Part shown: in pieces, positions 10,062 through 29,368 of the stretch
Numbering within the stretch: the stretch's first letter is position 1
Layout of the letters: each line of letters starts with the position of its first letter
From: Candidatus Gastranaerophilales bacterium
GTDB lineage: Bacteria; Cyanobacteriota; Vampirovibrionia; Gastranaerophilales; Gastranaerophilaceae
Assembly: GCA_944324165.1 (NCBI GenBank)
Contig: CALUVG010000020.1
Coordinates: 1-33,303, forward strand
Length of the DNA: 33,303 nucleotides
Direction of reading: 5' to 3'
Notes under the pieces: generated by a model
Database searches by the model: none
What the model was told of the DNA's origin: nothing
What the model saw: the letters and a program-made list of their open reading frames with translations, nothing else
Position numbers and translations under genes: made by a program

Positions 10062-10477
10062 ATGAGAGAAGAAACTTTTAATATATTAGCCTTTGAAAAT
10101 GCTGTAACACGTCTTAAGGCAGTACTTGTCAGGTATGCAAAAGATAATAAGGATGAATGTATCCGTGATGCTGTAGTACATCGTTTTGAGTTTACTTATT
10201 TATTGCATTAAAAACTTTAAGGAAATATTTTATTGAGCAGGCTTTTATAGTTGAAGAAATTAACAATATGACATTTAATACCATGATAAGAACTGCCAAC
10301 CAGCTCGATTTACTCAAATCAAATCTTGAAAAGTGGACAGGATTTAGAGAAATGAGAAATTTAACCTCTCACACATATGATGAAGAAGTTGCAGAAAAAG
10401 TTGTACGCGTAGTTCCTGATTTTTATGAGGAAGTTAGTTTTCTTCTGCAGAAATTAAAGGACAATCAAAATGTCTAA
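10062..10477 (+). pseudogene. Frameshifted HEPN-domain protein (HI0074-type nucleotidyltransferase partner)
   Basis: Two frames together make one HI0074-like protein of about 138 aa. The first frame runs from ATG 10062 to a TAA at 10209-10211 and ends RDAVVHRFEFTYLLH; the second, readable from about 10202, begins IALKTLRKYFIEQAF and continues to 10477. The family expects FTYELAWKTLKKY across the junction, so one base appears to be missing near 10199-10202. The HEPN motif R-x4-H (RNLTSH) survives in the second part. No slippery heptamer is seen at the break, so programmed frameshifting is unlikely; a recent mutation or a sequencing error would fit. It overlaps the MNT gene by 8 bases, the usual coupling of this pair. 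Confidence 0.85.
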
Positions 10478-10763
10478 CCTTGAGCTTGCAGATAAATATG
10501 TTGATTTTATAAAAAAGACTATTTTTAGTGTTCTGCCGGATGTAGAAATTTACATATACGGTTCAAGGGTTCAAGGTAAAGCGCGCGAGTATTCGGATGT
10601 GGATATTGCGTTGAAAGGCAATATTGTATTTAATGATTTACTGAAGGTAAAGGCGTTATTTGAGGACTCAACTTTTCCCTACAAAGTTGATGTAGTTGAT
10701 TTGAATACGTTGCCTGAAAAGTTTTTAAATATCATAGAAAAAGATTTGTACAAAATAGCATAA
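10470..10763 (+). CDS. MNT-type minimal nucleotidyltransferase (MntA-like antitoxin)
   Basis: 97 aa. Nucleotidyltransferase signature GSRVQGKAREYSDVDI (GS-x10-DxD) at residues 31-46 and a third acidic strand YKVDVVDL near 72-79. In HEPN/MNT pairs (type VII toxin-antitoxin, and the HI0073/HI0074 pair) this protein AMPylates or binds the HEPN RNase partner. Here the partner just upstream is frameshifted. ATG 10470 overlaps the end of the partner; AAGGAC lies upstream. The pair sits between fabH and fabD, where most relatives have no insertion. Confidence 0.9.
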   Translation: MSNLELADKYVDFIKKTIFSVLPDVEIYIYGSRVQGKAREYSDVDIALKGNIVFNDLLKVKALFEDSTFPYKVDVVDLNTLPEKFLNIIEKDLYKIA

Positions 10764-13634: not shown

Positions 13635-14954
13635 ATGAGAATATCCCCTATAAATTATTATAATAATCTTAAGCAAAACACTTCTAAAGCAGACGCAAAA
13701 TCGTCATTTAATTATTATGCATCATGTACAACGACGCCAAAGAGTATTGCTTTTTCCGGTGGATTAGATTATTTCATAAATAAGTTGAGTAAAAATCCAC
13801 TAAAACATTTCAAGAATTTTTCTATTCAGGAATATAATAATTTATCATCTTCTGCAATGTGCCGGCTGCGTAAGGAATATCAAAAACTTCAATACACAGA
13901 TCCTTATTTATACACAACAATGGCAGATGTACATAACTTTGCTGCGACTGCAATGCAAGTTGTATTTGACAGCCGCTTTGGCAAGAACAATTATGTTGTA
14001 ATCCCAATAGGACGCTCTCTTTCAAGTATCGGTAAAGTATTGGGCTACAGAATTGGCGAAAATAATGTCATTAACATTCCGATGAGTGATGCAAAACGAT
14101 TTAGTTCTTCGCTTTACTCAAGACAATATAAGGAATGTATACAAAACATAAAATCCGGAGAAAAGCTTGATGATTTACTGAAGTATTTAAATACTCATAA
14201 TTTAAGCCGTAAGGATATAGAGACAGGCGGAAAAAATTATATCCTGACAGATTATTGTGTTTCCGGATTATCACTTGAGGGCGCAGAACAACTTTTAAAA
14301 TCAGAATTAGTCTGGGGAAACAAAAAGAATAATATATATTCTGTGGATTTTATAAAATTATTAGATAATATAACCTATGACCAAAACTCATTACCAAATC
14401 CATTACAAATCTATACGAATATTAATAGAAAAATTAAAAATACACTTTACGAAAGCGAATATAAACAATTTTCATTTGTAGGAACTGCTAATTATTTTTC
14501 TTCTATGTTAGCAGCATCTCCTGAAAGAATAATACCGTTTGCAGATAAAGCCACAAAACTTGCATGGTTTCATCTGCTTGACACGGAAATGCAATATAAA
14601 GGTGTTAACAAATATTCTATACAACTTTCTGAGAAAAAACCTCTTTGTGAATTATCAGGTCAAAAAGTTGAACCGTGGAATGATATTCTTTCACAGTATG
14701 AGTACGATTTAAGAAATGATTTAATGGAAGTTAATAAAACAATAATGAAATTTGAAGAGATTAATTTCAATGATATATCGCCCCGGACAGAAAAACAGTA
14801 CCGTAAAAATAGGCTAAACCTTTATTCTATTTACAATACACTTGCTGAGTTGTACAGGCAAAACTCCAATACTTCAAAGATATCCAATTATTATTTGTTC
14901 AGGCAAAAAACAATTGATGAACTGAAAAAAATAAATGAATATTTAGAAAAATAG
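13635..14954 (+). CDS. Unknown protein with phosphoribosyltransferase-like motifs and N-terminal PI...FSGG tag
   Basis: 439 aa. No named family recognised. The N-terminus is MRISPINYYN ... KSIAFSGG (residues 1-43), the same style as the 91-aa protein at 29093. Residues about 119-215 have the look of a type I phosphoribosyltransferase core: a strand-loop VVIPIGRSLSSIG (121-133) where a PPi loop would lie, and YILTDYCVSGLSLEGA (202-217) that resembles the PRPP-binding loop D-x3-TG-x-T, with D206, SG and S213 in place. The C-terminal 200 residues are helical and unknown. There is no Shine-Dalgarno; TAATAG lies 6 nt before the ATG, a weak match to the leaderless pattern. PRTase-like activity is a remote inference. 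Confidence 0.75.
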   Translation: MRISPINYYNNLKQNTSKADAKSSFNYYASCTTTPKSIAFSGGLDYFINKLSKNPLKHFKNFSIQEYNNLSSSAMCRLRKEYQKLQYTDPYLYTTMADVHNFAATAMQVVFDSRFGKNNYVVIPIGRSLSSIGKVLGYRIGENNVINIPMSDAKRFSSSLYSRQYKECIQNIKSGEKLDDLLKYLNTHNLSRKDIETGGKNYILTDYCVSGLSLEGAEQLLKSELVWGNKKNNIYSVDFIKLLDNITYDQNSLPNPLQIYTNINRKIKNTLYESEYKQFSFVGTANYFSSMLAASPERIIPFADKATKLAWFHLLDTEMQYKGVNKYSIQLSEKKPLCELSGQKVEPWNDILSQYEYDLRNDLMEVNKTIMKFEEINFNDISPRTEKQYRKNRLNLYSIYNTLAELYRQNSNTSKISNYYLFRQKTIDELKKINEYLEK

Positions 14955-15000
14955 AAAAAACAAAATGGAGATATGCGTGGTAATTCTTTAGATAAAGTTT

Positions 15001-16107
15001 CTAAATATTAAAAAACTGTTTTACAAGCTGTATTTCTTGTTCTAAAGACATGGCAGGTTCCGCAAGTTTATGTTTAAGTATAAAATCAAAACAGTCTGAA
15101 TATTGTGGAGAAGGGGGAATACCAAGTGCTTTTAAATCGTCTCCGGTTATACTAATTTTGATTTTTGCCAGATCATCAAAATAATGTCGGACAGCTTTTT
15201 CATTATGCAAAATCGCATAAAGCAAAATACTTTCTCGATTTATATTTGTAAATGCTTTATAAATGTCAAAATCTGTTTTCAGATCAATTGAAGGAATATC
15301 CTCCAGAATTTTTTGTTCCGGTTTTGTAAGCGGCAGACGCGATAAATCTTTCACGGTTCCCGCAAAAACAATCCATTGATGTTCAACGGGATAATCCATA
15401 ATGAGTTTTTCTATATTAACTTCCGGCAGTTTTACCTCTTTATCCGTAACCAGTTTATAGATTTTGTCGTTGATAAATCTTTCATACGCCCACTGCAAAC
15501 TTTTTGTCATTTCGCCCCTGCGTTCAAAAGTTTCAACAAGTTCTTTTTTTACTCTGGAATAACTCATATCATAATTTATATTAGCAAGATACTCATCCTG
15601 CAATTTTTTCGTATGTTCATCCGGTTCAAATCCGAAACGCATGGCAAATTTAAGCCCGCGTATAATACGTGTCGGATCATCTATGAAACTTTCGTCATGC
15701 AAAACTCTCAATACACCGTTTTTTAAATCTTCAAGCCCGCCTGCATAATCTACAATTTCGCCAGTAGAAACCGACATGGCAAGTGCATTTATAGTAAAAT
15801 CACGACGTAAAACATCTTCCTGCAATGAAACTCCAATTTTATCAACCTGCGGCAAATGTCCTTTTTTATCATATTTTTCAGTTCTTGTGGAAGCAAAATC
15901 AACTTCTTGTCCGTCAACCAGAACTTTAATCGTGCCAAAATCAGGATTTATCTGCAAAACTTTTCCAAATTGTGCACAGTAATCAATTGCATTACCAACA
16001 TAAGTTATATCAATGTCTATGCTTTGGCGATTAAGCAAAAAATCTCTTACTATACCGCCTATATAATACAATTTATTTGATGTATCCTTTATTTTGATGA
16101 TGTCCAT
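15001..16107 (-). CDS. cca: tRNA nucleotidyltransferase / poly(A) polymerase family (CCA-adding type)
   Basis: 368 aa. Class II nucleotidyltransferase that adds CCA or part of it to tRNA 3' ends. Motifs: YYIGGIVRDFLLNRQSIDIDI (GG-x-VRD, then DxD), FGTIKVLVDG, EDVLRRDFTINALAM, and DDPTRIIRGLKFAMRFGFE. The C-terminal half is divergent, and no HD domain is seen. Whether it adds CC, A or the full CCA cannot be told from the sequence. ATG at 16107 has no Shine-Dalgarno, but a good promoter ends 6 nt before it, so a leaderless mRNA is likely. Divergent from the helicase gene; converges with the 439-aa gene. Confidence 0.92.
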   Translation of the reverse strand: MDIIKIKDTSNKLYYIGGIVRDFLLNRQSIDIDITYVGNAIDYCAQFGKVLQINPDFGTIKVLVDGQEVDFASTRTEKYDKKGHLPQVDKIGVSLQEDVLRRDFTINALAMSVSTGEIVDYAGGLEDLKNGVLRVLHDESFIDDPTRIIRGLKFAMRFGFEPDEHTKKLQDEYLANINYDMSYSRVKKELVETFERRGEMTKSLQWAYERFINDKIYKLVTDKEVKLPEVNIEKLIMDYPVEHQWIVFAGTVKDLSRLPLTKPEQKILEDIPSIDLKTDFDIYKAFTNINRESILLYAILHNEKAVRHYFDDLAKIKISITGDDLKALGIPPSPQYSDCFDFILKHKLAEPAMSLEQEIQLVKQFFNI

Positions 16108-16113
16108 GTGCTA

Positions 16114-16142
16114 ATATTAGCGTAAAATATTCATATTAACAA
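16114..16142 (-). promoter_or_regulatory. Predicted leaderless promoter of cca
   Basis: On the minus strand: TTGTTA at 16142-16137, 17-bp spacer, TAATAT at 16119-16114, then TAGCAC and the ATG. The -10 is embedded in a perfect 12-bp palindrome GCTAATATTAGC (16110-16121), which could also be read as an operator. Confidence 0.65.
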
Positions 16143-16167
16143 GTTTATAAAGGAGAACTATACACTT

Positions 16168-19100
16168 ATGCTTCAAGAGGCAGGAAAAGCGATTAATTCA
16201 GCATTTAATAACAGTTTTATAAAAAAATTAAGCCAGTATCTTCATGACTGTGTACGTGAAGAAGTAAAAAGTTCAACATTTCGCAACCTTAAAGGCGATA
16301 AGGATAATAAATGGATTTTCTTGCCGGGTGAAGAACAGCTTTTTACCAATTTTCAGGAATATATTGCTCTTGACGGCAGTAATCCTAAGCTTACCGAATT
16401 GATGATTCAAAGTGAGCTTGGACAAAAAGATAAATATTTGATTTATGGTTATCTTTTCCTTGTCGGCAAAAGTTCAAAGACAAAAAAACAAAATGAATTT
16501 TTAACTCCATTATTATACATGCCCTGCAAACTTGAACGTAACGGCGTAAATATAAATTGTATTCCGCTTGATGAAGTTTTGTCCTTGAATACCGGAGCTC
16601 TGGCAGGGCTTATGCGCAAAAATGACGATGAAGATGAAGTCGATTTATTGCTTGAGGGGATTCTTGATGTTGTTCCTGATTTGCCTATTACAGATGAAAA
16701 ATTGAGTATATTTCTCACAACATTGAAATCTATTGTTCCTGAAATTGAAATAAGTACAAATAAAGCTGATTATCAGGAAGAAGACAACATTTCCAAGACG
16801 ACAAAAGATTTTTATAAAGAAAAAATAGATGGTGAAAATCTTGAAGACGTTATAGAAGAGGAAGAAAATTCCCAAAAACAGGCTATGAAACTTGAAAAAG
16901 TTTCTGTAACATATCAAAGTGCGATTATCTTAACAAAACGTCCTTCTGTGACAGCCGGTGTTCTACATGAACTGACACAAATTGCAGAAAAACCAAGCGG
17001 TGTGTATCGCGAAACCGCATTAAATATAATTAACGAAGAATATGCGCAATCAAAAGAAAAGTCAGTACCTGTTCAGGATTTGAAAAAGATAACGGATTTT
17101 TATCCGATAACCCCGCTTTCATTGAGCGACAGCCAGCTGCAGGTAATAAAAAACATTGATAATACTAAATTTATAGCTGTACAGGGACCGCCGGGAACGG
17201 GTAAATCTCAAACTATAGTCAATCTTGTATCACATCTTGTCGCAAATGGAAAAACTGTACTTGTTGCTTCCCGTATGGACAAAGCCGTTGATGTTGTTGC
17301 TGAAAGATTGAATGATTTAGGGGCAAAGCACATGGCACTCCGTGCCGGACGTCTGAATTATCAACGACAGCTCAGTAATGACTTAAATAATCTTATTGCA
17401 AATAATGAAGACCTTGATAGTGATGCGGAAAATATCCTTCTGGTCGATACAAAAGATATGAAAGATCATCTGGATTTGCTAAAAGATTATGAAAACAAAT
17501 GCGAAAAAATAATCAAACTTGAACAAGACTGGCATGATCTGGATTTAGAAGTTATTGATGCCGAAAAATCAACGGGCAAAATACAGTTTATTCAATTCCC
17601 TCTTAATCGCGTTGAAATTGAAAGCATTTCACTAATTCTGAAAACACTTAAAAAGAATATGGAAAAATCAGGATTTTTTGCAAATATTGCTAATTTTGCA
17701 AGCCATAACCAATTGAAGAAAATCCTTAAGTTAAAAGATTTTGATGTAAATTTTGAAAATCTTAACAGGCTGCAAACAGAACTTGAATTTGCAGAGATGA
17801 ACTACCGTTTGCAAAAAATAGAATCTGATATTCAAAAAACAGGAAATCTGCATATACTTACGGAACAAATCCGACAGATGAAAAAGAAACAGGGTACTCT
17901 GGCAAAAAATATATTGAAAAATAAACGCAGAGAAGCATTGAAAGCACTTCTTCGCGATGAAAACAAACGCCGCCGCCTGAAAGTTCATGCAAAATCACTT
18001 GTGACTTCACGTAAAAGACTGCAGACAAATATTTTGGAAGAAGAAGATTTTAAACCGCTTTTGGAGGCTTTTCCATGCTGGTGTGTAACTACTTACGCAG
18101 TTTCTGATTCTCTGCCTTTAAAGCCTGGAATGTTTGATGTTGCTATCATTGACGAGGCTTCTCAATGTGATATTGCAAGCTGTTTCCCGATACTTTTCCG
18201 CGCAAAACGAGCCGTAATTGTAGGTGATGACAAACAGCTGCCGCATCTATCTTTCCTTGAAAAAGCAAAAGAACAATCTTTCCTCAGTCAGTATGGAATT
18301 CCCGATAAATATCAACTGATGTGGCGTTTTAGAACAAATTCAATGTTTGATCTGGCTGATTACTATTCTATGAATAGTGTAATGCTGGATGAACATTTCA
18401 GAAGCCTTCCGCCAATTATTAATTTTTCAAACCATGAATTTTATAACGACAGAATTCGGGTAATGAGAAAAGACAAACCTGATGAAAAAGTGCTGGAACT
18501 TGTAGAAGTTACTGACGGCAAAGTCGATTTTGATGCGACAAGAAACATGCCGGAAATTGAGGCATTAGTCAAAAGACTTTATGAAATAGTTGTTGAGGAT
18601 GAACGTCAAAATCCAGATAATCCTGTGTCAATAGGAATAATTTCACCATTCAGAGCACAGGTAGAACAGTTAAAAGTATCTGTATCAAAAGTATTGTCAG
18701 ATCATATGATTAGAAAACATCAGATAGAAATAGGTACAGCACATACTTTTCAGGGGGATGAACGCGATATAATACTTATTTCATGGGCTGTTGCTGACAA
18801 TAGTTTTACACAGAGCCTTATATTTCTTCAAAAATCTAATCTGTTTAATGTGGCGATTACACGAGGACGTAATAAAGTCATAAACTTCATTTCACGCAAT
18901 CCGCGCGAACTGCCGGAAGGACATTTCAGAAACTATATTTCATATATTCAAGAATACCGGAATAAACAACAGGTAAGCCTATCCGGAGAAATAGACGAAA
19001 ATATCTACAAAAATACTCTGGAACGTGAAATAGCGGCTCAAATCCGCGAACTCGGGCATGAAGTACGCGCAGGAGTTGAAATTGCAGGACTAAGTGCTGA

Positions 19101-19287
19101 TTTACTTGTAGATGAAAAATTTATCATTGAAGTTGACGGAGTAGAAGATAATAAAAAACTCTATCATATGACAAATATGAAAAAACAGGCAATTTTAGAG
19201 CGTAGCGGTTATATGGTTAAACGTATAACCTTCCGCGAATGGCAATACTCTCCTAAAGTATGTCTTGACAGGGTATTAATAGACTAA
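16168..19287 (+). CDS. SF1 DNA/RNA helicase (UPF1/Dna2-like) with C-terminal DUF559-type nuclease domain
   Basis: 1039 aa. Helicase motifs in order: GPPGTGKS at 340-347 (Walker A), IIDEASQCD with D662-E663 (motif II), VGDDKQLPH at 685-693 (motif III), EHFRSLPPIINF (IV), IGIISPFRAQVEQ, GTAHTFQGDERDIILIS (V) and NVAITRGRNKV (VI). A coiled-coil insertion of about 170 residues separates motifs I and II. The last 85 residues look like a PD-(D/E)XK fold of DUF559 type: ADLLVDEKFIIEVDG with D978, E988 and D990. The N-terminal 330 residues are unassigned. AGGAG is 12 nt before ATG 16168. Role in repair or defence is inference; no partner genes are adjacent. Confidence 0.9.
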   Translation: MLQEAGKAINSAFNNSFIKKLSQYLHDCVREEVKSSTFRNLKGDKDNKWIFLPGEEQLFTNFQEYIALDGSNPKLTELMIQSELGQKDKYLIYGYLFLVGKSSKTKKQNEFLTPLLYMPCKLERNGVNINCIPLDEVLSLNTGALAGLMRKNDDEDEVDLLLEGILDVVPDLPITDEKLSIFLTTLKSIVPEIEISTNKADYQEEDNISKTTKDFYKEKIDGENLEDVIEEEENSQKQAMKLEKVSVTYQSAIILTKRPSVTAGVLHELTQIAEKPSGVYRETALNIINEEYAQSKEKSVPVQDLKKITDFYPITPLSLSDSQLQVIKNIDNTKFIAVQGPPGTGKSQTIVNLVSHLVANGKTVLVASRMDKAVDVVAERLNDLGAKHMALRAGRLNYQRQLSNDLNNLIANNEDLDSDAENILLVDTKDMKDHLDLLKDYENKCEKIIKLEQDWHDLDLEVIDAEKSTGKIQFIQFPLNRVEIESISLILKTLKKNMEKSGFFANIANFASHNQLKKILKLKDFDVNFENLNRLQTELEFAEMNYRLQKIESDIQKTGNLHILTEQIRQMKKKQGTLAKNILKNKRREALKALLRDENKRRRLKVHAKSLVTSRKRLQTNILEEEDFKPLLEAFPCWCVTTYAVSDSLPLKPGMFDVAIIDEASQCDIASCFPILFRAKRAVIVGDDKQLPHLSFLEKAKEQSFLSQYGIPDKYQLMWRFRTNSMFDLADYYSMNSVMLDEHFRSLPPIINFSNHEFYNDRIRVMRKDKPDEKVLELVEVTDGKVDFDATRNMPEIEALVKRLYEIVVEDERQNPDNPVSIGIISPFRAQVEQLKVSVSKVLSDHMIRKHQIEIGTAHTFQGDERDIILISWAVADNSFTQSLIFLQKSNLFNVAITRGRNKVINFISRNPRELPEGHFRNYISYIQEYRNKQQVSLSGEIDENIYKNTLEREIAAQIRELGHEVRAGVEIAGLSADLLVDEKFIIEVDGVEDNKKLYHMTNMKKQAILERSGYMVKRITFREWQYSPKVCLDRVLID

Positions 19288-19319
19288 TTAGTTGACCTGA
19301 AGATAATTTATAAGAGTAC

Positions 19320-19348
19320 TTGTCATAAATTTTTATACCTGTTATTAT
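19320..19348 (+). promoter_or_regulatory. Predicted leaderless promoter of the SulP gene
   Basis: TTGTCA at 19320-19325, 17-bp spacer, TATTAT at 19343-19348, then 7 nt to ATG 19356. No Shine-Dalgarno lies between, so transcription would start at or next to the start codon. Confidence 0.65.
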
Positions 19349-19355
19349 TTATTCT

Positions 19356-20879: not shown

Positions 20880-20907
20880 TGTTAAAGCTGCTGATTTTTT
20901 GATAAAA

Positions 20908-22263
20908 CTATTTCATTTCAATTAGTTTGTATTTACGAACGCCAACTCCAAGATCAGCCGCAGCTTCGACTGTGTGAATACCGTGTTTTTCTTCCATTCG
21001 TTTTATTAATGAAGCTTTGCCCGGATCGTCAGAGTTATAAATCAAATCCACGCAAGCCTGATCTAATGCAACCGGATCTGTTGAAGAAAGTATTCCGATA
21101 TCTGCAATTTCAGGCTCTGCCGGATGATTATTGCAATCACAATCAATGGACATTCTCTTCATTACATTTATAAAAGTTATATTATCTTTCATATAATCCA
21201 TAACAGATTTGTCGGCATCAGCCATTGATTCTAAAAATTTATCCTGTTCGCAAGTCCAGATATCTTCCGGATGTCCTGCCCCATGGATATAAGCTTTGCC
21301 ATATGCAGATGCAACCCCTATTGACAAATTTTTTAACGCTCCGCCAAATCCGCCCATTTGATGCCCCTTAAAATGTGAAAGCACAAGCATAGAATTATAG
21401 TTTTCCAGATGTGAGCCTACATAATTAACTTTTATTTGTTTACCGTTTTGAACAGGCAATGCTATTTGCCCTTCTGAATCCATTATGTCAACTTTCGCAA
21501 TATCAGTAAATCCATGTTCTTTCATTACGGTCTCATGCTCGGAGGTTGTCATTCTTCGTCCTTCATAAGCGGTATTACACTCTACGATAGTACCTTTTAC
21601 ATAATCTACCAGAGGTTTTATAAACTCGGGCTGTAAAAAATTATGTCCGCCCGGTTCTCCGGAATGGAGCTTAACAGCAACATTCCCTTTAAGAATTCTG
21701 CCTGTTGTTTTATAAATTTCAACAAGTGAGTCCGGCGTCAATTTATCAGTAAAATATATTATTGCTGTATCCGGATGCATTTTTTTATAGATTAATCCAT
21801 AAGCCTGTGTTGCATTAAGTGCATTTTTTGTCAGCTCTTCAAAAGGACATAACCCCGTATTATCTTTATTTTTAATCTCATTAACAAGATGTTTATATTC
21901 ATATTTAATATTATTTTTCTTAAGTATTTCTACAGCCGGTTTTGACATTGTGTCAGCGTAAACATAGTCCGCATCTCCGTAAACATAAAGATATGCTGCT
22001 GCACGTCCTATTGTTTTGTCAAAAATATATGTATCATCAAAATTATCCTCTTCCAAATACATCAATAATGGATCCAAATTATGTTCTGTATATGTTTTTA
22101 TTTCGTTATCCTTATAAACAACAAGCGATGCCGTATTTAATTTTTCTATCAGCATAGCTTTTGTCTCTTTTGTAATTCCTTCTTCTTTGCTATAAGCAGG
22201 TAACACTATAAATGGGACAAGCAAAATAAGAAATAATAAACATATTTTTATAATATTTTTCAT
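20908..22263 (-). CDS. Exported DUF1893-DUF362 fusion protein
   Basis: 451 aa from ATG 22263, with AAAGGA about 8 nt upstream (a TTG two codons earlier is less likely). A signal peptide covers residues 1-25 (KNIIKICLLFLILLVPFIVLPAYS). Residues about 38-150 match DUF1893: SLVVYKDNEIKTYTE, TIGRAAAYLYVYG, VYADTMSKPAVEIL and NKDNTGLCPFE. Residues about 160-440 match DUF362: NVAVKLHSGEPGG, VLSHFKGHQMGGFGGALKNLSIG, a DCDCNNHP cysteine cluster and DIGILSSTDPVALDQACVDLI. DUF362 proteins are thought to carry Fe-S centres; the fused DUF1893 is of unknown role. A periplasmic location follows from the signal peptide. Converges with the SulP gene. Confidence 0.88.
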   Translation of the reverse strand: MKNIIKICLLFLILLVPFIVLPAYSKEEGITKETKAMLIEKLNTASLVVYKDNEIKTYTEHNLDPLLMYLEEDNFDDTYIFDKTIGRAAAYLYVYGDADYVYADTMSKPAVEILKKNNIKYEYKHLVNEIKNKDNTGLCPFEELTKNALNATQAYGLIYKKMHPDTAIIYFTDKLTPDSLVEIYKTTGRILKGNVAVKLHSGEPGGHNFLQPEFIKPLVDYVKGTIVECNTAYEGRRMTTSEHETVMKEHGFTDIAKVDIMDSEGQIALPVQNGKQIKVNYVGSHLENYNSMLVLSHFKGHQMGGFGGALKNLSIGVASAYGKAYIHGAGHPEDIWTCEQDKFLESMADADKSVMDYMKDNITFINVMKRMSIDCDCNNHPAEPEIADIGILSSTDPVALDQACVDLIYNSDDPGKASLIKRMEEKHGIHTVEAAADLGVGVRKYKLIEMK

Positions 22264-22509
22264 AATCAAATCCTTTTGTTAATTCTATATTTAAATTCTA
22301 GTTTTCAAAAAAACTTTTGTCAAAGAATACATAAATTGCAAAATTTAAATCAACAATATTTATTCGGTGATTATTCACTGATTTTTACAGTAACTCAGAA
22401 AAGTAAACCATTTAATGGATCTGGAATTGAAAATATTTTTGTATACTGTTAAAAAATGATAAATATCGGGAATAAGTATAAAGTAATGAATATTTAGGAG
22501 CATTGAGGA

Positions 22510-23880
22510 ATGAAGTTCACATACTTGTGGTTGTACTTTGTAGCTATAATTGCGTCTTTAGGCGGTTTACTGTCAGGATACGATACAGGTGTAATTTCAG
22601 GGGCTTTGTTATTTATAAATGAAACCTGGGATTTGACAGATTATATGCAGGGAATTCTTGTAAGTTCCGTGTTGATAGGGGCAGTAATCGGTGCTGCTAC
22701 AAATGGAATTCTTGCCGATATATTCGGACGTAAAAAGATAATTATGGTTACTGCAATTATCTTTATTGTCGGGTCAATATTATGTGCACTAGCCCCAAAC
22801 ATTGTTGTGCTTATAATTTCAAGAATACTTGTCGGATTGGCTGTTGGTATTGTTAATTTTGTTGTACCGCTTTATTTATCCGAAGTATCTCCCAAACAAA
22901 TGCGCGGTACACTTGTTTCACTTTACCAGTGGGCAATTACAGCCGGTATATTATTTTCCTATTTGATAAACAGTGCATTTGCACAGGCTGTCTTTAACTG
23001 GCGATGGATGCTTTTTGCAGGTGTTTTTCCGGGAACAATTTTACTTATAGGAATGACATTCCTTGGAGATACTCCGCGCTGGCTTTTGAGTAAAAATCGT
23101 GAAGAGGAAGCCAGAAAAGTTTTGCAAAAAATTGAACCCGATGTTGATCCGGATGAAGAAGTCAATCATATAAAAAATACTTTAAATCAGGAAACAGATG
23201 AAGGACAATCAAAAAAAATTCAACTGAAGAAATGGATGCTTATGCCTGCAATTGTTGGGCTTGGCATTATGTTTGCACAGATTTGTACAGGTATTAACAC
23301 TATCATTTATTATGCTCCTACAATATTTAAAATTGCAGGATTTGACAGCAACCTTAATGCAATTTATGCAACCACGGGAATTGGTGTTGTAAACTTCCTT
23401 ATGACTATTGTTGCAATATATTTTACTGATAGGCTTGGAAGAAAACCGCTTTTATACATTGGCTTGACAGGTGTTATGCTGAGCTTATTGAGTTTAGGCT
23501 GCGCATTCCAATTTGCAGATATTTTAGGAGCAAATCTTAAATGGGTTGCTGTTGGCAGTCTTGTAACTTATATAATATGTTTTGCAATGAGTTTGGGACC
23601 TGTCGGCTGGATTATTGTATCAGAAGTTTTTCCACTCAAAATCAGAGGCTGGGCAATGAGTATGTGTACGGTTGCAAACTTTGCCTTTAATTTCTTTGTT
23701 GTTTCAAGTTTTCCTATAATGATAAACAGAGTGGGCGGTGCCATTACATTCTGGATGTTTGCGGCTGTCTCATTCTTATGTATATTATTTGTATACGTCT
23801 TTGTACCGGAGACAAAAGGTATTTCTCTGGAACAAATAGAATCGAATTGGATAAAAGGGGTAAAACCGCGAGATTTTTAG
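22510..23880 (+). CDS. MFS sugar porter (XylE/AraE/GLUT-like)
   Basis: 456 aa with 12 expected membrane helices. Sugar-porter signatures: GGLLSGYDTGVISGAL in helix 1, ADIFGRKK in loop 2-3, VPLYLSEVSPKQMRGTL after helix 4, GINTIIYYAPTIF in helix 7, DRLGRKPLL in loop 8-9, and the final PETKGISLEQIE. Probably a proton symporter for a hexose or pentose; the exact sugar cannot be read. GGAG and GAGG sit before ATG 22510. It has its own terminator and no sugar-metabolism genes beside it. Confidence 0.94.
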   Translation: MKFTYLWLYFVAIIASLGGLLSGYDTGVISGALLFINETWDLTDYMQGILVSSVLIGAVIGAATNGILADIFGRKKIIMVTAIIFIVGSILCALAPNIVVLIISRILVGLAVGIVNFVVPLYLSEVSPKQMRGTLVSLYQWAITAGILFSYLINSAFAQAVFNWRWMLFAGVFPGTILLIGMTFLGDTPRWLLSKNREEEARKVLQKIEPDVDPDEEVNHIKNTLNQETDEGQSKKIQLKKWMLMPAIVGLGIMFAQICTGINTIIYYAPTIFKIAGFDSNLNAIYATTGIGVVNFLMTIVAIYFTDRLGRKPLLYIGLTGVMLSLLSLGCAFQFADILGANLKWVAVGSLVTYIICFAMSLGPVGWIIVSEVFPLKIRGWAMSMCTVANFAFNFFVVSSFPIMINRVGGAITFWMFAAVSFLCILFVYVFVPETKGISLEQIESNWIKGVKPRDF

Positions 23881-23887
23881 ACCAGAT

Positions 23888-23914
23888 GGGAGTCATTTGA
23901 CTCCCTTTTATTTT
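23888..23914 (+). terminator. Terminator after the sugar porter
   Basis: 7-8 bp stem GGGAGTC / GACTCCC with a tight ATTT loop, followed by TTTTATTTT. Confidence 0.85.
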
Positions 23915-23923
23915 AGTATATTT

Positions 23924-25135
23924 TTAAGGACGAATTATAGATACTACAGATTTGTTATTAAAATACTTTTCAGCACAAACTTTTATCTGTTCCGGCGTAA
24001 CAGTTTTTATGGTTTCTTTGATTTTGTCATCAAAATTAAACCCAAGCCCTTGAATACCGTAGTGAGCATATAAACATGCCTGCTGATTATTCGTCTCTTG
24101 AGTAAATGCCCATTTCCCTTGAATATTATTTTTAGCGTTTTCAAGTTCTTCCTGAGTGACTATAATATTCTTAATCTTGTCAATTTCTTCTTTGAATCCG
24201 TCCAGTGATACCTGAATATTTTTAGGCTCAGTCGCAATGTAAATAGAGAAATTCGCGCCTAATTTAAAGGTTTCATATGAACTTCTAACAACATAAGCCA
24301 ACCCCTTTTTATCCCGCAGTTCTAAAAACAGGCGGGAAGAAAGTCCTGATGCTCCTAAAATGATATTAAGCAATGCCAGAGCCGGATACTCTTCACTGTC
24401 AAATGTAGGTACCAGCCAGCCCTTCACTATATGTGCCTGATTTAAGTCTGACTTTATAATCTCTACATTCTTTTCTTCATGTAATTCAGGCTTTTGCAAG
24501 TCCGGTAATTTATCATTTGAATCAGGTAAATCACCTAAAAATTTATTCAATTGCGGGTAAACTGTATCAAATTCCAAATCTCCCACAAAACTTAAAACTT
24601 TTTTGCTGTTATTTAATATTTTGTCATAAGCAGCAATAACATCATCTTTTTTAATATATTGTATATTTTCTAAAATCCTTGTGTAAGTATAGCCGTATTT
24701 ATGACCGTCAAAAAGATTTTTATAATAATTTTCAAGTGCCTTAGCTCGCGGAGAATCCAATTCCGCAATGATTTCGCCTTCCATTTTAACAAGTTCACGA
24801 TCAAAATCGTCAAAAGTGGTATTTTTAACAACATCTGTCAAAAGTTCCAGTGCTTTTGAAAAATCTTCATTCAAACAAACAAATTTAAAACGCAGATAAT
24901 CTTGTTTTAATTCACAAAGAAATTCTATGGCATACTTATCTAATTCTTCAGACAATTGTTCTGCAGTTCTGTTTTTAGTACCCTGCATAAATAATCTTGT
25001 CATTACAGAATACACACCCGGATACTTTTCAATCTCATTTAGTGAAAAATTCAGGCATAATGCAACTCGCGGTGTATCAGGATTCCTTTTATAACAAAAA
25101 TCAATATTATTATTTAGTCTATCTTCTCTTTTCAT
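23924..25135 (-). CDS. M16 (insulinase/pitrilysin) family protein lacking the zinc motif
   Basis: 403 aa. The M16 fold is supported by the N-terminal half with GVYSVMTRLFMQGTKNRTAEQLSEELD and the C-terminal half with GASGLSSRLFLELRDKKGLAYVVRSSYETF. In active members the first segment carries HxxEH; here the aligned residues are S43-V-M-T46-R47, so zinc binding and catalysis are not expected. Such homologues usually pair with an active subunit, as in mitochondrial-type processing peptidases; none is in the window. No signal peptide. The frame extends to a GTG at 25159, but ATG 25135 is chosen because TGCTATAAT ends 6 nt before it. Confidence 0.9.
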   Translation of the reverse strand: MKREDRLNNNIDFCYKRNPDTPRVALCLNFSLNEIEKYPGVYSVMTRLFMQGTKNRTAEQLSEELDKYAIEFLCELKQDYLRFKFVCLNEDFSKALELLTDVVKNTTFDDFDRELVKMEGEIIAELDSPRAKALENYYKNLFDGHKYGYTYTRILENIQYIKKDDVIAAYDKILNNSKKVLSFVGDLEFDTVYPQLNKFLGDLPDSNDKLPDLQKPELHEEKNVEIIKSDLNQAHIVKGWLVPTFDSEEYPALALLNIILGASGLSSRLFLELRDKKGLAYVVRSSYETFKLGANFSIYIATEPKNIQVSLDGFKEEIDKIKNIIVTQEELENAKNNIQGKWAFTQETNNQQACLYAHYGIQGLGFNFDDKIKETIKTVTPEQIKVCAEKYFNNKSVVSIIRP

Positions 25136-25141
25136 AAAAGT

Positions 25142-25150
25142 ATTATAGCA
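25142..25150 (-). promoter_or_regulatory. Extended -10 of a leaderless M16 gene
   Basis: TGCTATAAT on the minus strand, then ACTTTT and ATG 25135. A clear -35 is not seen, as is common with extended -10 promoters. Confidence 0.6.
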
Positions 25151-25248
25151 TAAAAACACTTAAAGATAAATAACTTGTAATAAATAACTGTTTAATACAA
25201 AAAATAACATGCAGGTTTATAATTATTACAAAACAGGAAAGGTTATTT

Positions 25249-25554
25249 ATGAACAGATTTCTTATGATTATTTCAATATTAATAGTGAGTGTACTTGCAT
25301 ATACAGATGCAAGAGAAAGGCTAAAGGAGCTTGATGAAGTTGCAGCAAATACACCTGCACAAGTTGAAATGAAACCTGTTTTCAATAATAATGCGCCTGA
25401 GCAAAAATTTGAGAGGGCAGATGTATCAGAACCAAAAAACATGCAGCCTGCCGCTGCAGGAACAAGCAGTAATAGCATTAATAAAAACTATCAACAATCT
25501 AAACCGGATATCAAAAAGTTTCAAGAAAAGCGAAACGACGATATTTTTAAATAA
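25249..25554 (+). CDS. Small exported or membrane-anchored protein
   Basis: 101 aa from ATG 25249, with AGGAAAGG 7-8 nt upstream. Residues 4-17 are hydrophobic (FLMIISILIVSVLA), a signal peptide or single anchor. The rest is hydrophilic, low in complexity and probably disordered (NNNAPEQKF, AAAGTSSNSINKNY, a Lys/Asp-rich end). No family recognised. Divergent from the M16 gene and converging on the next secreted protein gene. Confidence 0.65.
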   Translation: MNRFLMIISILIVSVLAYTDARERLKELDEVAANTPAQVEMKPVFNNNAPEQKFERADVSEPKNMQPAAAGTSSNSINKNYQQSKPDIKKFQEKRNDDIFK

Positions 25555-25571
25555 ATCTATTATAAGTATTA

Positions 25572-26384
25572 TTAATAATCAAGCAGCATTTCGCCATAAT
25601 CCATAGTTTCAGACTCTTTTTCTTTAGGCTTGCTTATTTCAGGAATACTGCTATTATATCGTAATGTTCCGCCGTTTTCTTCTATTTTAACCGGTTTAGT
25701 CTCTATCGGGCTTACTACTTTAGGGAAAAATCGCAAAACAATATTCTGTGCTGCATCAGCTGCCGCTATGTGTTTTGAATAACTTTTCAACTTTTCAAAC
25801 TCTGTACGAGCCTGCGCATAATTGTTTGCGATAAAAAATCCTTCGTTATTACTGAGTTTTTTTACATAAGTATTTTGCCACATAGGTAAATCATTAACAG
25901 TATCCAGCAAAACAACATTAGTATTTAAATAAAAATCATGTGACAGCCTGAAGTATGATGTTATATCCAGCACATCCCAAATACTGCGTTTTAAGCTGTT
26001 ATCACTGCTTGTAGTATAAGTTCTGATTAATAAAACAGACTTTGCATTAAACTCTTTTGCTGCATCTTTGAATGTTTTATAATCTATGTATTTAGAAGTA
26101 TGAAATTTCCTTAATGCGCTGTCAATTGATGCCTTTAATTGAGTATTTTGTGTTAGCTTTGCCCTAACAGCATACAAATCCGGCGATATAATTTTTCCGT
26201 TTGTATTATTGAAATAAGTAATAACATCATTTGCAATAACTTCTGACGGTTCTAAAAATCCGAAATAGTTTTCATGCTGGTTGTATAAATCCGCAGGCAG
26301 TGTCAAAACATTAAATGTAACAGCATTTGCCTGCAATTGTATCAGGCATAAGCAAGTAATAAAAAATCTAACTAATATCCTCAT
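25572..26384 (-). CDS. Exported protein of unknown function
   Basis: 270 aa from ATG 26384. A signal peptide at residues 1-22 (ILVRFFITCLCLIQLQANA) implies periplasm or cell surface. The mature part looks like an alpha/beta domain (SVLLIRTYTT, NTNVVLLDTVNDLPMWQNTYVKKL near 120-190) that recalls penicillin-binding or TolB-like accessory domains only vaguely, followed by a Pro/Glu-rich tail. An upstream ATG (26402) exists, but the start chosen has TGCTATAAT exactly 6 nt before it and gives the better signal peptide. No family firmly recognised. Confidence 0.75.
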   Translation of the reverse strand: MRILVRFFITCLCLIQLQANAVTFNVLTLPADLYNQHENYFGFLEPSEVIANDVITYFNNTNGKIISPDLYAVRAKLTQNTQLKASIDSALRKFHTSKYIDYKTFKDAAKEFNAKSVLLIRTYTTSSDNSLKRSIWDVLDITSYFRLSHDFYLNTNVVLLDTVNDLPMWQNTYVKKLSNNEGFFIANNYAQARTEFEKLKSYSKHIAAADAAQNIVLRFFPKVVSPIETKPVKIEENGGTLRYNSSIPEISKPKEKESETMDYGEMLLDY

Positions 26385-26390
26385 GCTTTT

Positions 26391-26399
26391 ATTATAGCA
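26391..26399 (-). promoter_or_regulatory. Extended -10 of a leaderless gene
   Basis: TGCTATAAT on the minus strand followed by AAAAGC and ATG 26384; same nine bases as the M16 promoter. Confidence 0.6.
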
Positions 26400-26473
26400 C
26401 ATATATCATACATTTAAATGATTATAAAAGAAAAAAGATACTATAAAATTTTTTTAGAAGAAGGAGACTGAAA

Positions 26474-26857
26474 ATGGAATATGAAAAGTTAATGGAAAAA
26501 GCAATAGAAATTTCAAAAAATGCTTATGTTCCATATTCAAAATTTCCTGTAGGAGCCTGTATATTATCAGAACACGGAAAAATTTATACAGGCTGTAATT
26601 TCGAAAATTCCAGTTTTGGTCTTACTATATGTGCAGAAAGAAATACCGTAGGCACAATGATTGCTGATGGCGAAAGAAAAATTAAAGCAATAGCAATATA
26701 TTCGCCAAATATGGATAACTGTACTCCTTGCGGGGCATGCCGTCAGGTAATCCACGATTTTCAGGTTGAAGAAGGTACTGATGTCATAACCAGAATTGGC
26801 GAAAATTTGAAAATATATAAACTCAATGAACTTTTACCCGAAGGTTTCATGCTATAA
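26474..26857 (+). CDS. cdd: Cytidine deaminase
   Basis: 127 aa, homotetrameric-type length. It deaminates (deoxy)cytidine to (deoxy)uridine in pyrimidine salvage. Zinc site visible: Cys53-Ala-Glu55 (ICAERN) and Cys86/Cys89 in TPCGACRQ; the substrate motif YVPYSKFPVGA at 18-28 and NFENSSFG at 42-49 are intact. AAGGAG lies 7 nt before ATG 26474. The next gene starts on the base after its stop codon, so they form an operon. Confidence 0.97.
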   Translation: MEYEKLMEKAIEISKNAYVPYSKFPVGACILSEHGKIYTGCNFENSSFGLTICAERNTVGTMIADGERKIKAIAIYSPNMDNCTPCGACRQVIHDFQVEEGTDVITRIGENLKIYKLNELLPEGFML

Positions 26858-27076
26858 ATGTATATTATTGAATTAATTGTCAAAAAATTTTTAAAACGTG
26901 AAAAAGACAGCGGTTACAATCCGCTTGAAGAAGAAACGGATGATGAGATTGAATATGAAAACTGCGAACATATATTCATGCCAATAGACAGTTCCGGTGA
27001 AACACTAGCCTGCACAAAATGCGGTATAGTCGTTAACAAAAAAGATATGAAACGCCGCAATATCTTCCGTCCTTAG
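26858..27076 (+). CDS. Small zinc-ribbon-like protein
   Basis: 72 aa starting immediately after the cdd stop. The N-terminus is a short amphipathic helix with basic residues (YIIELIVKKFLKREK), followed by an acidic stretch and then Cys36-x-His38 ... Cys52-x2-Cys55, a plausible zinc ribbon. It ends with a basic tail (KDMKRRNIFRP). Translation is probably coupled to cdd. No family recognised; a link to nucleoside metabolism is only by position. Confidence 0.7.
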   Translation: MYIIELIVKKFLKREKDSGYNPLEEETDDEIEYENCEHIFMPIDSSGETLACTKCGIVVNKKDMKRRNIFRP

Positions 27077-27085
27077 GAGCCAATA

Positions 27086-28156
27086 TTATCCGTTAATATT
27101 AACTTTGTAAGATGTTTTTTGCCTATTGTCATGAGTATCATGTTTATGCTCGCCGTTACGATATCCAATGCCGGCTCTATAACCCGAAATAAAATACATT
27201 AAAGGAAGGGCAGGCTCTATCCATTTAAATCCGGACAGTATGCCTGCCGTAGCAATATCGTCAGTGTGCAATGCAATATCCAATGTTTCAGGTTTCCTTT
27301 CGGAGTATAGATTTTTATTGGATTTCTGATGGAATAGCGGATTAATAAGTTTTTTACTCATGTAATTAGCAATATAACTGCCGCCGACAATACCGGTTGC
27401 AGTAATACCTCCAAGTATTGTAACCAATTTTTGTGCAGGTGTAAGCGGTTTTATTATTTTATATTTCTGAAGTTTTTCAGCCCCGAACATTGCAAGTGCA
27501 GCCCCGACATTACATAAACAAATATTAGCGAAATATTGATAAAATCCCTCTTTTATTTTGTTTGCCGTCTTGTTTCTGGAAGAAGTTCCGGTTATTTTAT
27601 CCGCCGCAATACCTCCGATTACTCCGCCTATTACAGGAACAGCACCGAGTGCGGAAAGTCTTTTTATCTCTGCAAATGTGTGTACATCTTCTTTTACATC
27701 AGGCAAAATTACCCCGAACAAGTCCTTACGGGCTTGATTATGGGGTAATTTCGCTGACAGTAAAGCAATATCCTTCAGAGAAAGGTGAGTGGTTTTGGGT
27801 TTGGTCAATACAGATAGAAGGCTATTGTCTTGTATAGTTTCTTGTTTTAAATATTTATCAACAGCTTTACTCTGACGCGCCAGAATATCAGAAAGCGGTT
27901 CAGTTTCCATCAAGCCGTTAAATATTTTTCTGCCGTTTATTCTTAATCCTCTTGTTCCCAACAATGTAGCGGCAATAGTTGTGCCTATAATAATTGTATT
28001 TTTAAATCCGCGTTTTTTATCATGTTTTTTGTGTTTAACCGTATCATAAATTCCATATCCTACACCTGTACCAACCAGAAGAGCCGGCATGCTTTTGTGA
28101 AGTTTATTCAATATAACGGGTTGATCCACGAATTTTGCTATTGTTTGTATTTTCAT
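27086..28156 (-). CDS. Membrane protein of unknown function, under DtxR-type operators
   Basis: 356 aa. No family recognised. Five to six hydrophobic, Gly/Ala-rich segments are visible at about 23-38, 52-68, 168-186, 207-224, 243-263 and 305-330; several carry small-residue zipper patterns (GAVPVIGGVIGGIAADK, GGITATGIVGGSYIA). Charged, basic loops lie between (KHKKHDKKRG at 41-50). The C-terminal tail holds EHKHDTHD (336-343), a possible metal site. There is no good Shine-Dalgarno before ATG 28156. Its promoter overlaps two copies of a 16-bp palindrome and lies just after the gene of a DtxR/MntR-type repressor, so metal-controlled expression is likely; transport, storage or membrane remodelling cannot be told apart. 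Confidence 0.8.
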   Translation of the reverse strand: MKIQTIAKFVDQPVILNKLHKSMPALLVGTGVGYGIYDTVKHKKHDKKRGFKNTIIIGTTIAATLLGTRGLRINGRKIFNGLMETEPLSDILARQSKAVDKYLKQETIQDNSLLSVLTKPKTTHLSLKDIALLSAKLPHNQARKDLFGVILPDVKEDVHTFAEIKRLSALGAVPVIGGVIGGIAADKITGTSSRNKTANKIKEGFYQYFANICLCNVGAALAMFGAEKLQKYKIIKPLTPAQKLVTILGGITATGIVGGSYIANYMSKKLINPLFHQKSNKNLYSERKPETLDIALHTDDIATAGILSGFKWIEPALPLMYFISGYRAGIGYRNGEHKHDTHDNRQKTSYKVNING

Positions 28157-28172
28157 ATCAGACTCATGAACA

Positions 28173-28188
28173 GTTAGGTTAATCTAAC
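28173..28188. promoter_or_regulatory. Putative DtxR/MntR-type operator O2
   Basis: GTTAGGTTAATCTAAC, a 16-bp palindrome GTTAG-N6-CTAAC with one mismatched pair. It resembles the DtxR/IdeR box core (TTAGGTTAG/CTAA). It lies in the predicted leader of the membrane protein gene, 21 bp (two helical turns) from O1. Confidence 0.7.
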
Positions 28189-28193
28189 AATTT

Positions 28194-28209
28194 GTTAGGC
28201 ATGTCTAAC
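28194..28209. promoter_or_regulatory. Putative DtxR/MntR-type operator O1
   Basis: GTTAGGCATGTCTAAC, same GTTAG-N6-CTAAC pattern with one mismatched pair. It covers the end of the -10 box and the predicted start site, a position suited to repression. Confidence 0.75.
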
Positions 28210-28236
28210 TTTAATTTAAAAAAAATGTTTTGTCAA
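28208..28236 (-). promoter_or_regulatory. Promoter of the 356-aa membrane protein gene
   Basis: On the minus strand: perfect TTGACA at 28236-28231, 17-bp spacer, TAAAGT at 28213-28208. It lies in the gap after the repressor gene and overlaps operator O1. Confidence 0.65.
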
Positions 28237-28241
28237 GTCGG

Positions 28242-28670
28242 CTATGATAAAAATTTTCTTAATTCATCACTGAATTTTTCATTTTTATCAGAATATTCTT
28301 TAAGAAATGAATATAACTGTAGAAATCTTTTATATAATTTATCCGAAATAATATGTTCCATTTTACATGCATTTTCAGATGCTTCCTCTTCCGTAAGTAA
28401 TAAAATATCTTTAAAGAAAGCCGTCATAGACTTATGTTTTTCAAGAATTGCATGCGCCAGTTTTTCGCCCTCAGAAGTCAATGTAATAGTAGAGTATGGA
28501 GCATAATTTATCAATTTTTTTTGAGAAAGCTGTATAAGTGCAGAAGTTACAGATGCTTTTTTTACATTCAAAGCAGCGGAAATATCGGTAACTTTGGCAT
28601 GTCCGCTTTTCAAGACCTGATTGTAAATTTCTTCCAGATAATCTTCCTGGCTGTAGGATAAGTTTTTCAT
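28242..28670 (-). CDS. DtxR/MntR family metal-dependent transcriptional repressor
   Basis: 142 aa, the short form without an SH3-like domain. Winged helix-turn-helix at residues 5-65 (YLEEIYNQVL ... VTDISAALNVKKASVTSALIQL), then the metal-binding/dimer domain. Ligands can be read at DtxR-like positions: Asp10, Glu13, His79, Cys102, Glu105, His106 (ACKMEHIIS). Asp10 is MntR-like, while Cys102 is the residue typical of iron-dependent DtxR/IdeR, so the metal is uncertain, with iron slightly favoured. ATG 28670 has no Shine-Dalgarno; TGATATAAT ends 6 nt before it. Two matching palindromes follow the gene in front of the next one. Confidence 0.93.
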   Translation of the reverse strand: MKNLSYSQEDYLEEIYNQVLKSGHAKVTDISAALNVKKASVTSALIQLSQKKLINYAPYSTITLTSEGEKLAHAILEKHKSMTAFFKDILLLTEEEASENACKMEHIISDKLYKRFLQLYSFLKEYSDKNEKFSDELRKFLS

Positions 28671-28676
28671 AAGAAT

Positions 28677-28685
28677 ATTATATCA
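28677..28685 (-). promoter_or_regulatory. Extended -10 of the leaderless repressor gene
   Basis: TGATATAAT on the minus strand, then ATTCTT and ATG 28670. No GTTAG-N6-CTAAC box is present here, so simple autorepression is not suggested. Confidence 0.6.
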
Positions 28686-28719
28686 TAAAAAGTAAATAGA
28701 TTTTTTAATAAAAACGAAT

Positions 28720-28742
28720 AAAAAAAGGGAGCAAATGCTCCC
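28720..28742 (-). terminator. Orphan minus-strand terminator
   Basis: Read on the minus strand: GGGAGC, loop ATTT, GCTCCC, then seven T. No convincing minus-strand gene lies upstream of it, so it may end a small RNA or an antisense transcript. Confidence 0.75.
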
Positions 28743-29002
28743 GTTGGAATTAAGAATAGCTGGAAGTATGAAAAAGATTTAATTATATTTAACGGAATTA
28801 GTGTGTTTTTTACAATTACTCTTTCGGGTAATAAAAAAAATCCTGTTGGATAATTATTTTTTTGCAATATTACCCATGCCGGCAGACTTTTTCATACAAT
28901 AAAAATTTTAAAGCACCGTAATAAGTGTATTTTTACCACTTTATGACAAAATATTGATGAAATAAGTATTTCAGACGTCTTAACAAAAGTTTACAAGAGG
29001 GG
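28743..29002. other. Gene-free stretch between the repressor and the 91-aa gene
   Basis: No convincing protein gene. It is AT-rich with short A and T runs. A minus-strand frame at 28667-28867 would read through the terminator into the repressor promoter and has no ribosome binding site. A 13-codon minus frame (28854-28895, MKKSAGMGNIAKK) has no ribosome binding site. The minus-strand terminator at 28720-28742 suggests a short non-coding transcript from here, but I could not fix a promoter. Confidence 0.5.
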
Positions 29003-29031
29003 TTGACAAATTAAAATTTATATTTTATAGT
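29003..29031 (+). promoter_or_regulatory. Strong sigma-70 promoter of the 91-aa gene
   Basis: TTGACA at 29003-29008, 17-bp spacer, TATAGT at 29026-29031. The expected start near 29038 gives a leader of about 55 nt. Confidence 0.8.
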
Positions 29032-29033
29032 AA

Positions 29034-29064
29034 AAGTGTTAAATGAAGTGTTAATTAAACACTT
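29034..29064 (+). repeat. Repeats and hairpin in the leader of the 91-aa gene
   Basis: AAGTGTTAA occurs twice (29034 and 29046), and the second pairs with AACACTT (29058-29064) to form a 7-bp stem with loop AATTA. It could be an operator near the start site or an mRNA-stabilising 5' stem. Confidence 0.5.
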
Positions 29065-29092
29065 AATAAAAATCCTCGAAAGGAGGGCAAAC

Positions 29093-29368
29093 ATGATAAC
29101 AATAAATCCAATAAAATTTAATACTGTTAAACCGGTTTCATTCGGTAATACTAACAATAATAATACTGCTGCTCAGGCAATACTTGCATTGCAAAATGAC
29201 AGCGCGAAAGTAAACTTTGAAAAAGACCTTCAAAGAACTTACAAAGCTGATGCTGTACAATCCAACCCTGTAACAGCTTTAGCTTATAAATTCGGTAAGA
29301 CTTTAGATATACTAAGAGGCGCTAACAAAAGCGTTCAACCCCAAAAACACATCTCTTTCACTGCATAA
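29093..29368 (+). CDS. Small protein with N-terminal NPI...FGN tag, unknown function
   Basis: 91 aa from ATG 29093, with AAAGGAGG 6-7 nt upstream; an earlier in-frame GTG (29036) coincides with the transcription start and is rejected. The N-terminus ITINPIKFNTVKPVSFGNTN resembles that of the 439-aa protein at 13635 (SPI ... KSIAFSGG). The middle is helical and polar, with VTALAYKFGKTLDILRGAN near 62-80, and the end is ISFTA. No signal peptide or membrane segment. Strong promoter and strong ribosome binding site suggest an abundant protein. It is followed by a terminator. Confidence 0.8.
   Translation: MITINPIKFNTVKPVSFGNTNNNNTAAQAILALQNDSAKVNFEKDLQRTYKADAVQSNPVTALAYKFGKTLDILRGANKSVQPQKHISFTA

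Follow-up and report, generated by a model that had tools for sequence, protein, structure and literature searches.

The window analyzed here is a stretch of 33,303 nucleotides from Candidatus Gastranaerophilales bacterium (assembly GCA_944324165.1, contig CALUVG010000020.1, positions 1 to 33,303 of the forward strand). It encodes two proteins, of 439 and 91 amino acids (aa), that begin with the same kind of short, bipartite N terminus, hereafter called the tag. An earlier analysis made from the letters alone (the sequence-only reading) had pointed out MRISPINYYN...KSIAFSGG in the first protein and MITINPIKFN...KPVSFGN in the second, and both N termini are present as described. The features are the following.

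13635..14954, + strand: 439-aa tagged protein, with orthologs in five of five genus mates and weaker relatives
13635..13655, + strand: tag element 1 of the 439-aa protein, MRISPIN (M-x-I-x-x-I-N)
13656..13739, + strand: Asn/Ser-rich, hypervariable linker of the 439-aa protein, residues 8 to 35, of variable length
13740..13763, + strand: tag element 2 of the 439-aa protein, KSIAFSGG
28985..29092, + strand: conserved promoter and leader of the 91-aa gene, with TTGACA, TATAGT, the inverted repeat AAGTGTT-N5-AACACTT (29046-29064) and GGAGG, from an alignment of 16 relatives
29093..29368, + strand: 91-aa tagged protein (ATG at 29093 to stop at 29368), MITINPIKFNTVKPVSFGN, with orthologs in 19/59 genomes
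29093..29113, + strand: tag element 1 of the 91-aa protein, MITINPI
29129..29149, + strand: tag element 2 of the 91-aa protein, KPVSFGN
29345..29365, + strand: C-terminal KHISFTA of the 91-aa protein

Both proteins have a common layout, M-x-[IV]-x-x-[IV]-N (element 1), a variable Asn/Ser-rich linker, and then x-[IV]-[SNAP]-F-x-[GAS] (element 2). Their bodies were said to be unlike each other, and indeed the best BLASTP match between them had an E value of 1.7 (14 bits), so that the shared N terminus does not reflect homology of the two proteins. Neither protein had a match in Pfam, and sequence and profile searches with the 439-aa family returned nothing from PDB or Pfam. AlphaFold predictions from single sequences were uninformative, with predicted local distance difference test (pLDDT) values of 43.7 and 55.3 for the two proteins. 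No relative of the 91-aa protein was found in viral contigs. To the eye, the core of the 439-aa protein is phosphoribosyltransferase-like (IPIGRSLSSIG...LTDYCVSGLSLEGAEQLL), an identity that no search backed.

Spread, conservation and composition of the tag

The genome from which the window is derived comprises 2.05 Mb in 55 contigs, of which 833 kb (two 400-kb samples plus the window, approximately 41%) were read. Open reading frames (ORFs) come from a simple script rather than from a gene finder, and the relatives compared include Candidatus Gastranaerophilales metagenome-assembled genomes from gut and rumen. The set of tagged proteins was curated by score and by eye, with a motif learned partly from the own genome. 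The score, which combines both elements, was trained only on N termini of the own genome and used at a threshold of 12, starts at internal methionines serving as controls. N termini scored in excess of these controls, with 21/764 N termini against 9/2800 internal methionines in the own genome, which is the training set. In G046, a held-out genome from another family of the order, the counts were 10/365 and 1/1336 (p=1.7e-6), and in five named loci, also held out, 6/76 and 0/388, five of the six hits being the starch-synthase-like query itself. No N terminus scored in G058, a genome of the same class (0/324), or in Proteobacteria (0/247). Overall, the sampled 833 kb hold approximately twenty unrelated tagged proteins. 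Since about 2.7% of the own N termini are tagged, we extrapolate to approximately fifty proteins per genome. The tag is thus, as had been suspected, shared by many unrelated proteins of the order and restricted to this lineage. The literal pattern put forward earlier captured a real motif but was slightly too narrow, as element 2 varies at its position 2 and 0 to approximately 60 residues lie between the elements. A first, loose amino-acid regular expression was enriched at N termini in the first sample (p 0.005-0.013) and not significantly so in the second (p 0.06-0.31). The excess with a strict DNA pattern was modest only, DNA patterns being too insensitive.

Among orthologs of the 439-aa protein (39-57% identity), mean identity was 0.73 in the first seven residues, 0.35 in the linker, 0.71 in element 2 and 0.68 in the body. 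I3, F40 and G42 are invariant across 7 orthologs while their codons differ (GGT, GGA, GGC and GGG for glycine; ATA, ATT and ATC for isoleucine), indicating selection at the protein level. The elements behave in the same way in the orthologs of the 91-aa protein (MKINKINNINFKEN, MRVNSINSINNSYRNNKVSFKGD and MRIQSTQNILFSGV, for example), where element 1 reads MITINPV, MITVNPV, MLTISPI, MKINKIN or MRVNSIN and element 2 reads KPISFGE, KVSFKGD, KYISFGE, NINFKEN or NILFSGV. The C-terminal KHISFTA of this protein resembles a second copy of element 2 and is kept in the genus and looser outside it. At L037:19415-19850, two further very small proteins, of 69 and 73 aa, end in LCLMA and LDLLA, and a C-terminal [FLYVIM]-x-A is, weakly, about twice as common in proteins of at most 110 aa (9/246) as in longer ones (11/700).

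Element 2 typically lies at the boundary between a disordered leader and the body, and a small residue occupies position F+2 in 35/39 tagged proteins, partly because of how the set was selected. Compared with other non-membrane N termini from the same genomes, the first 30 residues of tagged proteins are enriched in Asn (2.07x), Gln (1.52x), Pro (1.45x) and Ser (1.40x) and depleted in Leu (0.53x) and Glu (0.46x), as well as in Cys and Met; Thr (1.16x) and Asp (0.72x) did not differ significantly. A hydrophobic segment starting before residue 40 was found in 1/38 tagged proteins versus 157/764 of all own proteins, in good agreement with the earlier statement that the tag is not a classical signal peptide. 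Because of this missing hydrophobic core near the N terminus, we rejected a Sec/Tat or lipoprotein signal peptide for the tagged set. A type IV prepilin leader, in which some 20 hydrophobic residues come after [GA]-F-T-L-x-E, was rejected as well, since tagged proteins have no such hydrophobic stretch; true prepilins KVAFTLAEVLITL are present separately.

Tagged proteins, export genes and candidate function

Most of the tagged proteins searched had no match. Those with a domain match include an ADP-ribosyltransferase exoenzyme (268 aa), an HNH endonuclease (460 aa) and an HD domain, and further bodies are an AAA plus M41 protease, a TPR protein, a starch-synthase-like enzyme (754 aa) and a GH77 4-alpha-glucanotransferase (655 aa, with a tag variant). 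In the long starch-synthase-like paralogs of the order, element 2 lies directly before the catalytic domain in 18/18 readable cases (background, 0.335), and an element 1 of the type M-x-[IVL]-x-x-[IVL] was found at 14/22 starch-synthase-like N termini (own background, 0.079). Element 2 can also occur in tandem, as in the starch-synthase-like protein of G046 (SKVNFGALR...THISFAGNP) and in LSFEGLSFMG. A short GlgA frame of approximately 485 aa is present in nearly every genome; the single copy inspected (L241) is untagged and has no leader, the N termini of such tagged and untagged paralog pairs having been inspected in part of the genomes. Within GH77 group 1, element 1 (M-x-[IVL]-x-x-[IVL]) is present in 20/25 proteins, against the same own background of 0.079. 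The GH77 assignment rests on this element, because the second one is a variant, F-x-[ER]-[RKP], that barely exceeds its background. Another set of GH77 proteins (L207-L211) is mostly without the tag.

Two observations concern other N termini. ADP-ribosyltransferase-like proteins of the genus (L361, L362, L363, L365, L367 and L381) share the start MIGF[ED][ND][VI]N[ST][RK]IIAGSV, with a likely membrane segment after it; this may be a second type of leader. In the neighboring paralogs at L037:1213-2364 and L037:2555-3484, the tag is followed approximately 50 residues on by a lipoprotein-like stretch with LTSC or VVSC at its end. These paralogs may combine the tag with a lipoprotein signal, or their start codon may be internal.

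FHIPEP, the FlhA/SctV family, was found in 57/58 genomes searched. Three kinds of FlhA occur in most of the order, a canonical one (~880 bits), a second full-length one (~720 bits) and one consisting only of the cytoplasmic domain (~165 bits). No flagellin was found in the own genome or in five genus mates, and the own genus, together with many others of its family, lacks both canonical FlhA and flagellin. They nevertheless keep the second FlhA (except G005, which has the C-terminal type only), the soluble FlhA-C-like protein and FlhB (none was found in G004). In the own genome, there are two FlhA-type genes and one FlhB, and one locus reads FliE-FliF-(unassigned gene)-FliH-FlhA. The GH77 gene with the tag variant is preceded, at a distance of 23 bp, by the gene for a 491-aa soluble protein with the C-terminal domain of FlhA. 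Of the 18 genomes that hold a close GH77 ortholog, from 8 genera, 13 (G000-G006, G011, G015, G018, G019, G026 and G029) have a soluble FlhA-C-like gene directly before the GH77 gene and in the same orientation, with 53-101 bp between the matched regions. This soluble protein (L177:5509-6984, - strand) joins a DUF4177-like piece at its N terminus (E 0.057) to the cytoplasmic domain of FlhA and lacks the membrane part; nearly all genomes of the order encode it. In the flagellated G046, the second FlhA lies with flgB/flgC-type rod genes, FliE, FliF, FliH and an ATPase of the type III secretion system type, and the canonical FlhA lies with fliP and flhB. At the level of the class, where co-occurrence of tag and FHIPEP was assessed with one sampled genome and one gene family, no FHIPEP of family f8 exceeds the curated cut-off, and G058, the member tested, shows no excess of the tag either, while family f9 has FHIPEP and an FG-type element (VRFGAAS, for example) in the leader of 7/7 long starch-synthase-like paralogs. 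Flagellar export genes in members of the order without flagellin have so far been described as partial flagellar gene sets (PMC5877343), and the literature that we searched contained no account of the tag or of a type III system in Gastranaerophilales.

Among sorting, assembly and processing, the roles suggested in the sequence-only reading, the evidence leans toward sorting for export. We tentatively favor the reading that the shared N terminus is a lineage-specific, motif-bearing type III export signal, because a bipartite, disordered, type III-like leader precedes unrelated soluble proteins in genomes that keep an export core without flagellin; effector-like bodies among the tagged proteins also count for it. 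The short hydrophobic start (M-x-[IV]-x-x-[IV]) and the second motif would together form a modular export address, set within an unstructured, Asn/Ser/Pro-rich and Leu/Glu-poor leader ahead of many unrelated, mostly soluble proteins. Its reader would most likely be a flagellar-type type III export machinery made of a FliE/FliF/FliH/FlhA/FlhB core and the soluble FlhA-C-like protein, and tagged proteins would leave the cell by way of a core that was kept even where flagellin has gone. Binding of the tag by this machinery, the exit of tagged proteins from the cell and their destination are what we infer here. A broader and less certain proposal is that the order, a group of non-photosynthetic cyanobacterial relatives, may have converted its flagellar export gate to general secretion, with a motif-bearing N-terminal address on approximately fifty proteins per genome, duplicated starch/glycogen enzymes included, and the soluble FlhA-C-like protein as cargo receptor.

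Several points weigh against export. The ADP-ribosyltransferase homologs, used as a test of an effector role, gave a mixed picture, most being without the full tag and mostly having another N terminus (MIGFENVNSRIIAGSV). In GH77 group 1, the strict second element was found in 8/25 proteins, little above the background of 0.218. Some tagged proteins have a membrane segment (6/38, versus 249/764 of all own proteins with any hydrophobic segment) or look like lipoproteins. Enrichment was weak and not significant in G011 (2/344 versus 5/1261), where tagged proteins are visible by eye. The tag has two conserved motifs and Asn as its strongest bias, unlike classical type III effector signals. Neither does it follow the signal of early flagellar subunits, as a hydrophobic residue at F+4, expected of an FxxxPhi gate motif, was found in 8/39 cases against a background of 0.378, and F lies at residue 8-17 in many tagged proteins, which often puts the elements nearer to each other than FlgD requires. 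In G046, the soluble FlhA-C-like gene stands beside fliK-flgD-flgE and therefore in a flagellar context. Finally, FliP/Q/R were seen only in G046 (they were not sought in the own genome).

The main rival, a cytosolic docking tag, is a serious alternative, though a less probable one. Element 2 would then be a short linear motif binding a hub, perhaps the soluble FlhA-C-like protein or a scaffold at the pole, the membrane or a granule, and would gather clients inside the cell. It is to be taken seriously chiefly because element 2 can duplicate, as binding motifs do (in tandem in G046 and possibly at the C terminus, in KHISFTA), and because some clients are metabolic enzymes, acting on sugar polymers; the flexible position of the element also fits. 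However, docking leaves unexplained both the export gate in genomes without flagellin and the type III-like composition. We consider it improbable that the tag serves cleavage by a lineage-specific protease, at or near F-x-G, or that the leader sets turnover: the usual place of element 2 at the border of leader and body and the small residue at F+2 would fit such processing, but element 1, which is equally conserved, would be given no role. That the leader has no present function, having spread by duplication or fusion of gene starts and been kept by inertia, is very unlikely; the motif is indeed very short and many tagged genes are lineage-restricted, but I, F and G stay invariant through synonymous codon changes while the linker is randomised. 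A chance resemblance of two N termini, for which one could invoke a short motif, Asn-rich strings from AT-rich genomes, the modest excess of the strict DNA pattern and the second-sample result of the first regular expression, is hardly credible, being refuted at the level tested by the held-out enrichment, the conservation in orthologs and the negatives in G058 and Proteobacteria.

If the tag is an export signal, candidates for exported proteins could be listed by search in gut bacteria that are common but hardly cultured, and the retention of flagellar export genes by members without flagellin would have an explanation. Type III substrate recognition would also become testable, because classical signals have no motif.

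Start of the 91-aa gene and neighboring genes

A longer ORF of the 91-aa protein, from a GTG at 29036, is misleading, as this in-frame stretch is the promoter and leader (TTGACA...TATAGT, hairpin, GGAGG) kept in 16 relatives; we therefore place the start at ATG 29093. The inverted repeat AAGTGTT-N5-AACACTT was found at 16/383 loci, every one of them at the 91-aa gene, and is positioned near the expected transcript start. It could be either an operator or a hairpin in the 5' part of the mRNA; the RNA fold of the leader has a z score of -3.25. Upstream, on the opposite strand, lies a gene of the iron-dependent-repressor family (28242-28670).

Elsewhere in the window, at 10268-10763, a HEPN-type (NTase_sub_bind) protein, whose gene may be cut short at its start, is followed by a small nucleotidyltransferase-like ORF, and the two are likely an MNT/HEPN toxin-antitoxin pair. 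At 20908-22269 (- strand), a DUF362 domain is fused to a TM1506/DUF1893 domain behind an N-terminal hydrophobic segment.

Comparison with known export signals

Encapsulin and bacterial microcompartment cargo-targeting peptides are short terminal peptides common to unrelated cargo. The tag is likewise a short terminal peptide on unrelated proteins, but its sequence differs from theirs.

Type III effectors are enriched in Ser, Thr and Pro, depleted in Leu and acidic residues, and richer in coil (Arnold et al. 2009, PMC2669295). Like these injectisome signals, the tag stands at the extreme N terminus of unrelated proteins, is disordered, Ser/Pro rich and Leu/acid poor, and has no cleavable hydrophobic signal. 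The compositional bias of the classical signals is thus found in tagged N termini and an export gate (FlhA family, FlhB, FliE/FliF/FliH) in the genome, whereas their absence of a conserved motif is not shared.

Early flagellar subunits have a bipartite export signal made of an N-terminal hydrophobic signal and the gate recognition motif FxxxPhi, and in FlgD approximately 19-24 or more residues are needed between the two (PMC8983047). The tag resembles this signal in its hydrophobic extreme N terminus, in its separate Phe-containing element and in the type of export gate concerned. However, element 2 is F-x-[GAS] rather than FxxxPhi, and the spacing ranges from 0 to approximately 60 residues.

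In Chlamydia trachomatis, the glycogen enzymes GlgA, GlgB, GlgX, GlgP and MalQ are exported by type III secretion (PMC4829429). Similarly, starch-synthase-like proteins and 4-alpha-glucanotransferases are among the tagged proteins. Unlike in Chlamydia, the tagged enzymes of the order, which are putative export substrates, are extra paralogs beside probably untagged copies.

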